Source of the DNA: Blastopirellula sp. J2-11
GTDB taxonomy: Bacteria > Planctomycetota > Planctomycetia > Pirellulales > Pirellulaceae
DNA length: 64,000 bases
Reading direction: 5' to 3'
Assembly: GCF_024584705.1 (NCBI RefSeq)
Contig: NZ_CP097384.1
Location: forward strand, 5,828,001 to 5,892,000
Position numbers and translations under genes: made by a program. The notes below the pieces were generated by a model. That model was not told the origin of the DNA and did no database searches. It saw nothing but the letters and a program-made list of their open reading frames with translations. Shown here piece after piece: positions 31,255 through 39,255 of the stretch (within the stretch, counting starts at the first letter, position 1; every line of letters starts with the position of its first letter).

Positions 31255-32913
31255 ATGTTCATGAAGATACTTAGTTCGATGGGTCAATCGTTGGCGAGTC
31301 TCGCCAATTTGATCACGGCTCCCGTCGCTGCGACCGCCCGCGCTCAAGGGACCGCTCGCTTGCTGCTATGGCTGGTCCATGGGCTGGCGATCGTCGCCAT
31401 TTTGATCGGGCTGTGGTGGCTGAATGATTATTTAGAACTGGAAAAATCAGTTCGCTTTCCTTCGGCCATCGTCCGCTCTAGTTGGTTGCCAATTCTGTTT
31501 TTGCTGGGCTACGCATTGGGCTGGCAAGTCTGGTGGATGATGCGTCTCGTGCGGCAACGCGTCAGCGTTTCTCCCTACCCAGATCTGGACCAGGCTTGGA
31601 CCGAAGCGACCGACCAACTGATGCGCAATGGGGTTTCCTTGGTTAACGAGCCGCTATTTTTGGTGTTGGGCCAAACGACGGCCGGTGATGTCAACTTTTG
31701 CTCGGCTGCCGGACTCTCGCTCACGCAGCCGCCGACTCCGCGCGGCGCCGACGCGCCGCTTCGCATTTGGGCGGATGAACGAGGCGTTTTCGTTTCGTTG
31801 CGCGATGCGTCGCTATTGGGCTTGCAGGCTTCACGTTTGCACGACTTGGCCCGCGCGGCGGAAGAGACGAATCCAATGGAAGTGGTGGTCGCCGGCAATG
31901 ATCCGTATAACGAACCTGTCTACGCTGATTTTCTAAACAGCGAGAGTTCTGGCGTCGCTGTCATGCCGACGACGCAGAAGAAACTAGAAAGCACCGCCGT
32001 TTCGGCCGAATCGAAACTGGACGAAGCCGAGTCGAATTTGGCATTAGCTTTCGCCGAACCTTCCGCTAACGCGATGATTCGGACAACACCGCAGGTCGAA
32101 GCCAAAACCACCGTTGAGATTAACAAAGAAGAGATTGACGAAACGCTCGATCGGCTCGACTATGTGATCGACTTGATTCGCCATGCACGCGCCCCTTATT
32201 GCACGCACAACGGAGTGATCGTGTTGGTCCCCGGCGATGCGACCGAAAATCTGGCCGTCGCGCAACAAACGGCGGTCCTGATGCAGCATGATCTGCAGCA
32301 AGTTCGTCAAGCGAGCGAAATCGCTGGTCCCGTCACGGCGATTTTCTGCGACGCAGAACAAATCAACGGCTGTGACGAATTGCTGCGTCGTTTTCCGGAA
32401 GAACACCGTTGTCGTCGCTTTGGCGCCGAACTGCCAAATGTCCCGGTCGCCGATTTCAGCAACATCAAAGAGATCTTGCACAGAGGCGTTGAGTGGGTCA
32501 ATCGCTCGCTCGCATCGGCCTTAGCCTATCGGATCTTCGCCCAACGCGATTCGTTCCACGGGGATCAACGCCGCGAGATTGAGAGCAATCGGATGCTTTA
32601 TCAGTTCGTCAGTTCATTGGACCGTCGCAGCGATGCGATCCTGCGTATTCTAACTCGCGGTCTCTATCCAGAACATCACGGCGATTGGATTCCTTCCGGC
32701 TGGTATCTGGCCGCGACTGGAAACGATCCGCTCACCCAGCAAGGCTTCCTGCCTGGTGTGATGACGCTGATCTTTGACGCCCAGAACTTCGTCAGTTGGA
32801 CCGAAGATGCGCGCCGCCGTGATCGCATGCGAAACTGGTTCACGGTCTTCGGCTACGCCGGTCTGGGCGTCGCGGTGCTGGCGCTGTTGATCGTCGCACT
32901 CACCAAACTGTAA
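31255..32913 (+). CDS. Short TssM-like (IcmF-related) membrane protein, degenerate P-loop
   Basis: This 552-residue protein sits where tssM normally follows tssL. It has two N-terminal membrane segments (about 35-57 and 77-97), a cytoplasmic domain, and one C-terminal membrane segment (about 531-550) that is followed only by its last residues. The segment NEPLFLVLGQTTAGDVNF (131-148) aligns with the TssM pattern PWYLxIGPPGSGKTT. It lacks the Walker A lysine. The later ADERGVFVSLRDASLLG takes the place of the Walker B-side TDEAVLIDTAGRY, with the catalytic Asp-Thr changed. Canonical TssM has about 1100-1300 residues with a large periplasmic domain; here it is absent. I infer an inner-membrane anchor without NTPase or TssJ-binding function. 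Confidence 0.75.
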   Translation: MFMKILSSMGQSLASLANLITAPVAATARAQGTARLLLWLVHGLAIVAILIGLWWLNDYLELEKSVRFPSAIVRSSWLPILFLLGYALGWQVWWMMRLVRQRVSVSPYPDLDQAWTEATDQLMRNGVSLVNEPLFLVLGQTTAGDVNFCSAAGLSLTQPPTPRGADAPLRIWADERGVFVSLRDASLLGLQASRLHDLARAAEETNPMEVVVAGNDPYNEPVYADFLNSESSGVAVMPTTQKKLESTAVSAESKLDEAESNLALAFAEPSANAMIRTTPQVEAKTTVEINKEEIDETLDRLDYVIDLIRHARAPYCTHNGVIVLVPGDATENLAVAQQTAVLMQHDLQQVRQASEIAGPVTAIFCDAEQINGCDELLRRFPEEHRCRRFGAELPNVPVADFSNIKEILHRGVEWVNRSLASALAYRIFAQRDSFHGDQRREIESNRMLYQFVSSLDRRSDAILRILTRGLYPEHHGDWIPSGWYLAATGNDPLTQQGFLPGVMTLIFDAQNFVSWTEDARRRDRMRNWFTVFGYAGLGVAVLALLIVALTKL

Positions 32914-34679: not shown

Positions 34680-34759
<80 letters not shown>

Positions 34760-36375: not shown

Positions 36376-37524
36376 CTAGCCTTTTTCGGCGGCCGCCGGT
36401 TCTGTCGGAGCGTAATCGTAGATCCGAAAACTCTTCACCTTTTTCGCGCCGCCCCGTTCAAGGGTAGCGCGCGAAAGATGGTTGCTTTCCAGCACCCAAG
36501 AGAACTCTGCTTCTTGGATCCCAAATTTCAGGCTATCCGGAATGAGGCGTTCCAAAAGCACCAGGCCGATCCCCCAGCGTTGGAACTCCGGCAATATATT
36601 GGTGCTCATCAGACGTACGCGGTGGATCTTCTTGCGATTCCAAAGCAGTCGTAAGAAGCCAAACGGAAAGAGCCGCCCGTCAATCTTCTTGATGCGGGGA
36701 TTGTAGTCAAGCAAGCCGAACACGGCGCCGACCGGTTTTCCTTCGATTTCGCAGATGGTGGTCAATTCGGGCACGACCAGTTGCTTCAACCCTTTGGCCA
36801 TGTGGTCTACCTCTGCGTCCGAGAGCGGAACAAATCCCCAGGTCGCGACCAACGACTTGTTGTAGATGTCGAGGAACATCCGGACTTCTTCCGCAAAGCG
36901 GCTCTTGTTGATAGGACGCAGCACCGGTTGGAAACGGCGTTTCGCTTCGTCGACGATAAACTTCAGCTTGGGGTCGAGCGATTCGAGCATGGCCAAATCT
37001 CCCCAAAACGCATACAAGTCTTCGACTTTGCGAAAACCATAGCCTTCAATCAAATCGGCGTAATAAGGCGCGTTATAGGACATCATGAAGGTCGGCATCG
37101 AGTCGAAACCTTCGATCAGCAGACCACACTCATGATTGAGCGATGGGTTGGTGGGCCCACGGACCAGCAGGATGTCGTGTTCTTTCAACCAGGCTCGAGC
37201 GGCGTCGAACAGCGCATTGGCGACTTCCTGGTCGTTAATCGACTCAAAGAAACCAAAGAAGCCGCGGCGTTCTTTGTAGCGTTCAATATGCCCGTTGTTG
37301 ATGATCGCGGCGACGCGACCGACCGGCTTGCCATCCTTCAACGCCAGAAAGCATTGGATTTCGTTTTTTACATAAAACGGGTCCGGATCGAAGTTCAGCA
37401 GTTCTCTTTGGTTCTGTCGCAGCGGCGGCACCCAACAGGGATCCCCCCGGTAGAGGTCCCAGGCGAGTTGCGTGAACTGTTTTTGTAAGCGGCGCGATAC
37501 GACCGGTTCAACGGTTATGGACAT
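36376..37524 (-). CDS. GNAT-fold protein of about 380 residues
   Basis: This 382-residue protein resembles the family annotated as GNAT-like N-acetyltransferases without a known substrate. Features are DLYRGDPCWVPPLRQNQREL and DGKPVGRVAAIINN (GNAT strands beta4-5). Later NILPEFQRWGIGLVLLERL resembles the acetyl-CoA loop with Q/R-x-x-G-x-G reduced to QRWGIG, and EFSWVLESNHLSRATLERGG ends with the usual GNAT motif B. Two GNAT folds in tandem are likely from length. GGAAG precedes the ATG. It is monocistronic, and its promoter side faces the candidate small RNA region. Confidence 0.8.
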   Translation of the reverse strand: MSITVEPVVSRRLQKQFTQLAWDLYRGDPCWVPPLRQNQRELLNFDPDPFYVKNEIQCFLALKDGKPVGRVAAIINNGHIERYKERRGFFGFFESINDQEVANALFDAARAWLKEHDILLVRGPTNPSLNHECGLLIEGFDSMPTFMMSYNAPYYADLIEGYGFRKVEDLYAFWGDLAMLESLDPKLKFIVDEAKRRFQPVLRPINKSRFAEEVRMFLDIYNKSLVATWGFVPLSDAEVDHMAKGLKQLVVPELTTICEIEGKPVGAVFGLLDYNPRIKKIDGRLFPFGFLRLLWNRKKIHRVRLMSTNILPEFQRWGIGLVLLERLIPDSLKFGIQEAEFSWVLESNHLSRATLERGGAKKVKSFRIYDYAPTEPAAAEKG

Positions 37525-37695
37525 GCGAGACTTCCGGAAGTTTTTTGATCGACGAAGAAGACGGCGATTACGCCTGAACAGAGTGAGTCGACGCGGCGTA
37601 TCTTCTTAGAATGTGGCGCGCGCGTCGACCGCCCTTTCTGAAAATTATCGATCGGCGTCGGACGATAGTTTCTTCGGGATGAACTCATTTTTCGC

Positions 37696-37725
37696 TTGCA
37701 ATTCAAATGCAGAAAACTTTATAAA
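37696..37725 (+). promoter_or_regulatory. Sigma-70-type promoter candidate
   Basis: TTGCAA (37696-37701), 18 bases, TATAAA (37720-37725). Predicted start near 37732. Confidence 0.5.
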
Positions 37726-37731
37726 ACAACC

Positions 37732-37843
37732 TTTGATTCGACAGTTTCGCCGATTCTGAGCGAATAGGCGTTCGATATCCTTGGTCGCTTGCGACCGGGA
37801 GGACCCTCACAGACACTGCCCCGTTTGTGGGGGTTTTTCTTTT
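37732..37843 (+). ncRNA. Candidate small RNA, unknown family
   Basis: The segment runs from a predicted start near 37732 to a terminator. It holds a small hairpin GGTCG-CTTG-CGACC near 37783 and a 9-bp terminator stem, ACCCTCACA (37803-37811) with TGTGGGGGT (37826-37834), followed by TTTTCTTTTC. No neighbouring plus-strand gene could use this terminator; the nearest plus gene upstream ends at 32913. I do not recognise SRP RNA, 6S or tmRNA signatures. The evidence is promoter plus terminator only. Confidence 0.45.
37803..37843 (+). terminator. Orphan intrinsic terminator
   Basis: ACCCTCACA and TGTGGGGGT form nine pairs (one T-G), followed by TTTTCTTTTC. It points away from any annotated upstream gene. 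Confidence 0.7.
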
Positions 37844-37863
37844 CTTGCCATCCCTCATAGGCG

Positions 37864-39255
37864 TTAATTTTGCTCGATCGCACGCACGGCGTCGCCATCG
37901 TGGAGGCTTGAGTCCGGCGCCAAAATGACCAGATCCTCAGGCTTCAAGTTCGCTGTGATCTCGGCGAAGCGATCGTTGATCAATCCGACTTCAACGCGAA
38001 CCAAGCGAGCGACATCGTCGCGAACGGCCATCACTTGCCAACTGCCGTCGGCGGCGCGAAACAGACAGGCGCGGGGGATTGTTAATGCGTCCTCTTTCTC
38101 TTCTTCAATCGCGCGAACTTGCACGCGATAGTCGACGCCCAGCGTCCGATCGACGGCGATCTTTTCCAGTTCTCCGCTGCGCAGTCGGACGATCACTTTG
38201 ACCCGTTGCTGATCGACTCCCAGCGAACTCCGTTTGGTAAATCCAGCCGGTCGAATCCGCTCGACGACCCCCTCTAAACCGTTCTCCGGCGCACGTCCAA
38301 CCGCCGCGCCATAGATCAGCGCCCGCGAGCCGTGATGCAAATTAACCGCATCCTGACTCAGCAGATCGGCTTCGACTTCCAGTTCGTGCAAATTGCCGAT
38401 CGTCAGCAGTTGCGTGCCCGCGGCGAGTTGCTGCTCGTTGACGATCGATCGTTCTAGTACGACGCCGTCGATCGGACTAATCATCGTACCGCGCTGGACG
38501 TTCGTCTGCGCTTGACGTAATCGCGCTTCGGCTTCCAGCTTTTCTTGTTTCAGCACGGCGATGGTCAAATCTTTGCGATCGATATACTGCTGCACTAGGG
38601 TCGGCAGCAGCAACGTGGCGGCGTCAATGGATTTCATCGCCTGAAAAATCAAGATGTCTTGCTGATAGTCGGTGTCGGCTTCGACCTTGCGCAACTGCGC
38701 TCGATCGAGTTCATCTTCGGTTTTGGCGCCGGAAGGAATTAACGTCTGGACGCGACCCAAAAAAGTGATCGCATAGTCGAGGCGCGACTTGCCGGCGACC
38801 ATTCGCGACTTGGCCGCTTCGACGGTCGATTTCATCGATTCGACGAAGTGGGACGCCTGAGTTTTGCTGGTATCCTCGACGGTGGTATCGGCGTTTTCTG
38901 CGATCGAAGCGGTCAATCGTTCGACCGCCGCTTTCGCCTGGTCTAATTCATTTTGCAGATCGCTCTGCACCAGACGTGCGACGGTTTCCCCTTTTTTCAC
39001 GGGATCGCCTGGCTCCAAGGCGATCGCTTCGATTCGACCGGCCAGCGGCATCGTGATCTCATAGGTGCGCGGCAAGCGGGTTTTTCCTTGTTCGTCGACG
39101 TACTGTGCGATCGGACCGCGTAGCGGCCGGATTGTTTCCACCGGCACGCCGGATGATTGTCCCAGCGCCAGCCAGCCGCCGATAATCGCCAGGATCACGA
39201 CCACAGTGATGGACCACTTGTTTATCCAGCTAGAGCCGGAACGATTTTTTTTCAT
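37864..39255 (-). CDS. HlyD-type membrane fusion protein (ABC exporter adaptor)
   Basis: This 463-residue adaptor protein has one N-terminal membrane segment (WSITVVVILAIIGGWLAL). Its first lipoyl half carries GRIEAIALEPGDPVKKGETVA. A long helical hairpin spans residues about 98-255, and its second lipoyl half is SPIDGVVLERSIVNEQQLAAG. A beta-barrel and membrane-proximal domain follows. It links the inner-membrane ABC permease to the outer-membrane side. It starts 2 bases after the permease stop, and AAGGAA lies inside the permease end. The set ATPase-permease-adaptor is of the MacAB/DevBCA kind. No TolC is in the window. Confidence 0.9.
   Translation of the reverse strand: MKKNRSGSSWINKWSITVVVILAIIGGWLALGQSSGVPVETIRPLRGPIAQYVDEQGKTRLPRTYEITMPLAGRIEAIALEPGDPVKKGETVARLVQSDLQNELDQAKAAVERLTASIAENADTTVEDTSKTQASHFVESMKSTVEAAKSRMVAGKSRLDYAITFLGRVQTLIPSGAKTEDELDRAQLRKVEADTDYQQDILIFQAMKSIDAATLLLPTLVQQYIDRKDLTIAVLKQEKLEAEARLRQAQTNVQRGTMISPIDGVVLERSIVNEQQLAAGTQLLTIGNLHELEVEADLLSQDAVNLHHGSRALIYGAAVGRAPENGLEGVVERIRPAGFTKRSSLGVDQQRVKVIVRLRSGELEKIAVDRTLGVDYRVQVRAIEEEKEDALTIPRACLFRAADGSWQVMAVRDDVARLVRVEVGLINDRFAEITANLKPEDLVILAPDSSLHDGDAVRAIEQN

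Follow-up and report, generated by a model that had tools for sequence, protein, structure and literature searches.

A predicted small RNA with a CUGCCCC terminator loop, conserved between a GNAT gene and an exporter gene in two genera of planctomycetes

Introduction

Examples of small RNAs that base-pair through C-rich loops are RepG of Helicobacter pylori, sX13 of Xanthomonas, and B11 of mycobacteria, which is the same RNA as 6C. RepG consists of two stem-loops, the second of which is its terminator; the C/U-rich loop of this terminator pairs with the target, a homopolymeric G repeat, and suffices for repression (PMC8295292). The gene for RepG lies beside an orphan response regulator gene (PMC8295292). 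B11 has three stem-loops, two of which carry six and nine cytosines, and one of its C-rich loops is in the Rho-independent terminator, which does the target pairing (PMC12395582). sX13 has three C-rich apical loops, which depend on G-rich (4G) motifs close to where translation of the target begins, and 4G motifs are enriched in the mRNAs that it represses (PMC3771888).

The candidate that we describe here shares with RNAs of this type a C-rich motif that is exposed in the terminator loop. Like RepG, it has two stem-loops and a C-rich terminator loop, but RepG binds homopolymeric G runs (PMC8295292), whereas the candidate’s loop is ACUGCCCC, with the motif CUGCCCC, and comes from another phylum; homology was compared by Rfam only. 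Some of the candidate’s relatives resemble B11 in that a single RNA carries several C-rich hairpins, but B11 has three stem-loops and is from Actinobacteria (PMC12395582). We think that the candidate most likely works like RepG, B11, and sX13.

The Rhodopirellula-1 motif appears to be rated as probably cis-regulatory in the 2010 table that lists it. It is listed there as a candidate RNA for Planctomycetes and Proteobacteria, and the excerpt of the table gives no Rfam accession in its row (Weinberg et al. 2010; PMC2864571). We compared this motif with our candidate by its description, and the two could overlap.

A predicted small RNA in the gap between the GNAT and hlyD genes

The window that we analyzed is a stretch of 64,000 nucleotides from Blastopirellula sp. 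J2-11 (NZ_CP097384.1, positions 5,828,001 to 5,892,000). A preliminary description had proposed a small RNA between a GNAT gene and an exporter gene. The gap in question (37525-37863) does lie between a GNAT acetyltransferase gene (36376-37524) and a gene for an HlyD-type adaptor (hlyD; 37864-39255), both on the minus strand. The proposed promoter is present on the plus strand as it had been read (37696-37725): TTGCAA as the -35 element (37696-37701), a spacer of 18 bases, and TATAAA as the -10 element (37720-37725). Around the -35 element, ATTTT..GCTTGCAA is kept in all four members of the genus, and ACTTTATAAA, at the -10 element, is invariant in the four-genome alignment. If transcription starts 7 nt after the -10 element, at 37732, then the RNA would be about 110 nt long (37732-37843, plus strand).

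The predicted RNA contains two hairpins. Hairpin 1 (CTTGGTCG-CTTG-CGACCGGG; 37780-37799, plus strand) has 8 base pairs and a tetraloop, and the GGTCG-CTTG-CGACC hairpin that had been noticed earlier is part of this longer stem. The second hairpin (37804-37833, plus strand) has the left arm CCCTCACAGAC (37804-37814), the loop ACTGCCCC (37815-37822), and the right arm GTTTGTGGGGG (37823-37833), and is followed directly by the T-run TTTTTCTTTT (37834-37843). It had been described as a plus-strand terminator with a 9-bp stem; the strand and the T-run are as described, but the stem has 11 pairs. The hairpin is also seen in the fold and in the covariation of related hairpins (see below). The last seven bases of the loop are CTGCCCC (37816-37822, plus strand), flush with the 3' arm. 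Given the conservation of TGCCCC, we propose this motif as the base-pairing seed.

The locus has its own promoter and its own terminator, with no protein gene between them; support for the promoter consists of its sequence and its conservation within the genus. Upstream on the plus strand, the nearest gene-like open reading frame stops at 32913. The distance of about 4.8 kb agrees with the earlier estimate of almost 5 kb. (We read the plus-strand frames between 32913 and the gap as shadows of minus-strand genes.) The predicted RNA folds better than shuffled sequences (z = -3.70 and -3.67), while the minus strand of the whole gap barely does so (z = -1.09).

Consensus scans were uninformative, and it is conservation that raises the candidate above chance. 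Between 31 and 44 kb, a scan found 4 promoters vs. 5.1 in shuffles and 17 terminators vs. 17.1, and the candidate’s promoter breaks the scan’s rule at the final position of the second hexamer. In the organism’s own genome, the exact full promoter pattern occurs once, and there are 120 matches with up to 3 mismatches vs. 201 for the reversed control.

We also saw an inverted repeat (GTCGACGCG...CGCGTCGAC, 37587-37629) upstream of the GNAT gene, around a well-kept core (GTATCTTCT..GAATGT). It is largely preserved in the four genus members and is possibly a regulator site for GNAT.

No known family had been recognized in the preliminary description, and our Rfam searches agree. At Rfam’s cut-offs, nothing in the window matched except a tRNA, and 20 related loci gave only two tRNAs. 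(The sole tRNA gene found in the window is tRNA-Gly(GCC), at 34686-34759 on the minus strand.) At a low threshold, the segment gave only weak matches, which fall short of the gathering cut-offs: TCV_H4 (19.8 bits vs. 50), isrB (14.3 vs. 35), and ctRNA_p42d (13.9 vs. 50). A literature search that covered titles and the openings of abstracts found no description of a planctomycete small RNA among the matches listed.

The hairpins are conserved in two genera

The block is recognizable by DNA similarity in the three other genomes of the window’s genus (g1; four genomes compared), with 94, 81, and 73% identity, and in all four it is bordered by GNAT and hlyD. In the alignment of these genomes, the promoter and the last ~65 bases, which hold the hairpin and the terminator, are nearly invariant. 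The middle, between these conserved blocks, drifts, and one genome has an insertion of about 28 bases there. The other 56 genomes that we searched by DNA gave only short fragments, in three of them (G022, G006, and G020). We consider these to be chance matches: they are an isolated 22-base stretch and two terminator-like stretches.

A covariance model (R1), built from only three g1 sequences and searched over 241 genomes of the family, reached further. It found the RNA in 8 of 9 genomes of a second genus (g62), in the same gap between GNAT and hlyD, with E values of 3e-9 to 7e-13. In the ninth genome (G088, locus L053), the RNA is also in this gap; the left arm of its terminator is gone, and CTGCCCC and the right arm are still there. 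The RNA is present in the GNAT-hlyD gap, then, in 4/4 genomes of g1 and 9/9 of g62. (At E <= 1, R1 touches 143 genomes, mostly weakly, and we did not count these as relatives.) GNAT is beside hlyD in 15 of the 30 hlyD loci that we fetched, and 13 of these 15 have the RNA; the two that lack it are both from genus g58.

Hairpin 1 shows compensatory changes. In a 10-bp frame, 95.5% of 110 cells are paired, and both sides have changed in 9 of the 10 pairs. The covariation score is 0.871 vs. 0.321 +- 0.057 for shuffles and 0.06-0.23 for slid frames, from a small alignment (11 distinct sequences) that was trimmed by hand around the hairpin. The preliminary description had named a lack of stem conservation in relatives as a sign against the RNA; in this covariance search, the stems proved to be conserved. 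Its reading of the locus as a free-standing RNA of about 110 nt is strengthened by the presence of the hairpin and the terminator in the same gap of 13 genomes from two genera, and further by the compensatory changes in hairpin 1 and the recurrence of the loop motif in the family.

The promoter of g1 cannot be aligned with, or recognized at the same place in, the g62 copies. A fixed rule finds some promoter, in one case a weak one, before 6 of the 8 g62 copies tested.

UGCCCC loops across the family

The terminator loops of both genera have CUGCCCC as their last bases. R1 also matched elsewhere in the family, among unrelated genes, and other matches of this kind have UGCCCC, mostly as CUGCCCC, at the same position of the loop. 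(We take the family and the order of the genomes compared to be Pirellulaceae and Pirellulales.) Some R1 matches were rejected as relatives: L095 and L097, from genus g10, have a similar first hairpin without the loop motif at those places, and at L092 and L094 the match is a terminator that lacks the motif.

We built another model (R3) from 13 terminators with UGCCCC loops, including the window’s genus. At E <= 0.01, R3 matches 96 of 241 genomes and 41 of 68 genera in the family, and in a draw over the phylum it matches 38 of 392 genomes, 7 of those 38 being in the family. We do not use these tallies as the size of the family because matches without the motif show that ordinary terminators are included. 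Outside the order, TGCCCC was present in none of the 9 matches that we opened (E = 1e-6 to 7e-5). Within the family, among matches opened after the model was built, TGCCCC was present in 19 of 20 with E below 1e-6 and in 12 of 20 weaker ones (absent from 8). On the 60 fetched loci, all 67 R3 matches have TGCCCC, the model having been built on this motif. Reading the loops themselves, we found at least one that ends in UGCCCC in 31 of the 68 genera of the family. Three genomes that belong to the order but not to this family (L199, L202, and L220) have UGCCCC loops as well.

In the stem of these related terminators, 98.9% of cells are paired, and the covariation score is 0.829 vs. 0.278 +- 0.016 over 59 distinct rows (the alignment was fitted to the model, and some rows are second hairpins or refetched places, with identical rows counted once). 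Terminators in the organism’s own genome do not generally have this loop: among 256 terminator hairpins in 1.66 Mb, just one has CCCC in its loop, which is the candidate itself.

By eye, many relatives share a plan of a short tetraloop hairpin, a short linker, and a CUGCCCC terminator, often preceded by two hexamers that resemble a promoter, and the stem of the first hairpin differs from genus to genus. A hairpin with a score of at least 15 lies within 40 nt upstream at 43 of 61 sites, vs. 7 of 76 ordinary terminators from the organism’s own genome and 7% of shuffles; outside of g1 and g62, such a hairpin is present at 19 of 36 sites. Similarly, one fixed rule finds a promoter at 29 of 61 sites vs. 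7 of the 76 ordinary terminators (18 of 36 outside of g1 and g62). We set aside a test based on where open reading frames end in the relatives, because DNA of this kind is rich in long stop-to-stop frames.

Two adjacent UGCCCC hairpins are present in several genomes and genera. Doubled hairpins also occur in genus g69 (L216, L217, and L374-L377), where three genomes have 6, 7, and 10 R3 matches, of which we opened a part; this suggests that the family has expanded there. In genome G148, locus L221 has CUGCCCC terminators at 2001-2039 and 2113-2151, on the same strand and about 110 nt apart. By the rule, the terminator at 2113-2151 has a promoter (TTGACG-16-TATAAT), so the locus may hold a tandem pair of small RNAs. 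The genes around the relatives vary. In genus g84, the RNA with the same loop lies by genes for carbamoyl-phosphate synthase and an NtrC-type response regulator, and in genus g88, by genes for a LuxR-type response regulator and CheB.

All of the g1 and g62 genomes (4/4 and 9/9) have a second CUGCCCC terminator elsewhere, at two different loci. In g62 and in one g1 genome (G001), it follows a same-strand gene, and the other three g1 genomes use another locus. In the organism’s own genome (G000), the second terminator is at C1:2795048-2795086 on the minus strand (L203, 2001-2039), which is outside of the 1.66-Mb sample. The rule finds a promoter before the second terminator in 1 of 13 genomes, and a same-strand gene ends 60-265 nt upstream in 10 of 13, so some of the second terminators may end a gene.

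Candidate targets

If the loop pairs with mRNAs, then its sites would contain GGGGCA or GGGGCAG. We examined 1,019 genes (rough predictions, including their starts, from a quarter of the organism’s own genome), and GGGGCA is not enriched near their starts: it occurs 3 times at -30 to -3 vs. a permutation mean of 8.4, and 5 times at -40 to +20 vs. 12.5. This does not support a broad regulon. It also differs from the 4G enrichment among the targets of sX13 (PMC3771888).

The full GGGGCAG is found within -40 to +20 of only two of these genes. One is a putative pstB (the name is ours, from the sequence), which we rejected as a target: GGGGCAG is upstream of the gene in only 2 of 9 genomes, and 4 of 5 g62 genomes carry GGGGCA about 50 nt inside the gene. 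The other encodes a hybrid sensor histidine kinase with PAS, HisKA, HATPase, and receiver domains (L154:8035-10029, plus strand; G000:C1:1908035), and GGGGCAG directly precedes its start codon. Among its orthologs, 11 of 12 have GGGGCA just upstream of the start codon, at a distance of a few bases (3/3 in g1 and 8/9 in g62), and 7 of 12 have the full GGGGCAG (3/3 and 4/9). The site has been kept although the proteins are only ~45% identical between the genera. The exception, from G085, has GGGGGAA in place, with the C lost, and no clear ortholog was found in G001 (g1).

The kinase site came from screening the 1,019 predicted genes, and the start codons are our own reading; in 5 of the 9 g62 genes, another in-frame start lies further upstream. 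In 18 additional kinase matches from the family, which are probably paralogs and of doubtful orthology, no GGGGCA was found close to the start. The site may instead be an unusual but conserved ribosome-binding site. The GGGG might even be required for translation, a need that was seen for one target in the study of sX13 (PMC3771888). Overall, we put forward the kinase mRNA as a tentative target, and we think it less likely than not that it is one.

A pattern of GGGGCAG plus ATG gave 39, 54, and 107 matches in three genomes vs. 25, 31, and 46 for reversed patterns, which make a poor control, as they match neither ATG nor composition. The kinase sites of G003 and G091 are also present in this independent list. 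Among the matches listed, four sites whose letters are the same or nearly so in G000 and G003, plus a similar one in G091, were rejected: none is at a shared gene start, and the four lie inside, against, or unrelated to coding starts.

What the RNA might do

From the comparisons above, it is very likely that the small RNA is real. The hairpins, the terminator, and the loop are conserved across genomes as aligned here, and within the genus so is the promoter; from these features we infer that the RNA is transcribed. We think that it is probably a free-standing regulatory RNA of about 110 nt that acts in trans, by pairing of its loop with GGGGCA in mRNAs. A sigma-70-type promoter of its own would drive the RNA, which would have a variable 5' part, followed by the tetraloop hairpin and the terminator hairpin. 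The mark of the family would be UGCCCC, mostly CUGCCCC, on the 3' side of the terminator loop. This loop would pair with GGGGCA or GGGGCAG in mRNAs, with at least one site at the ribosome-binding site of the hybrid sensor histidine kinase, and the pairing would lower, or otherwise change, the translation of the kinase.

A protein might bind the loop instead. CsrB-type RNAs soak up the protein CsrA, and the hairpins could similarly be a decoy for an RNA-binding protein that recognizes CUGCCCC loops. This would fit the invariance of the motif, which is flush with the 3' arm, on stems that vary, as well as its frequent doubling within one RNA and the lack of enrichment of GGGGCA near starts. But the window’s RNA and many others have a single copy of the motif, and a conserved complementary site does exist in an mRNA (that of the kinase), so we regard a decoy as rather unlikely. 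Less probable again is an element that acts in cis: as an antisense RNA or a roadblock, it would govern how far transcription of the exporter operon continues into GNAT, or it would shield the 3' end of hlyD. The RNA does lie between two minus-strand genes, antisense to any read-through from hlyD, and this gene order is preserved in two genera. However, relatives with the same loop adjoin unrelated genes (carbamoyl-phosphate synthase and the NtrC-type regulator, the LuxR-type regulator and CheB, and others), and all 13 genomes of g1 and g62 have the second CUGCCCC terminator elsewhere.

It is more improbable still that the locus is an ordinary terminator or a chance hairpin, kept for termination alone. 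As an intrinsic terminator it is a good one, sites that look like terminators are frequent, and the terminators of some relatives do come after same-strand genes. But there is no plus-strand gene here for it to end, hairpin 1 is conserved too, and the sequence of the loop, which termination does not need, is fixed and was seen in 1 of the 256 sampled terminators. Lastly, the locus could be a leader or encode a short peptide, and not be a non-coding RNA; by eye, several g62 genomes have a short ATG frame that overlaps hairpin 1. Yet the predicted RNA of the window contains no ATG, L043 and L053 lack the ATG as well, and the middle has insertions and deletions between g1 members. With no conserved start, we rejected this explanation, to which we give hardly any credence.

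Returning to the trans-acting RNA, this is apparently an undescribed family of small RNAs in Pirellulaceae and Pirellulales: no Rfam family matched it at the cut-offs, and it was not found in the literature matches listed. A wider and more speculative idea, which we would not bet on, is that these RNAs form an undescribed regulatory system of Pirellulales, in which siblings with CUGCCCC loops control two-component signaling, either by pairing or via a protein that binds the loop. There would be up to about ten siblings per genome, all with the CUGCCCC loop; the hybrid sensor kinase would be the link to signaling here, and in other genera the RNA genes adjoin genes for response regulators.

The family suggests a target that can be tested, and it would be a further, independent instance of pairing through the C-rich loop of a terminator. 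With an easily recognized loop in 31 of the 68 genera of the family, it may give a first handle on RNA regulation in these bacteria.
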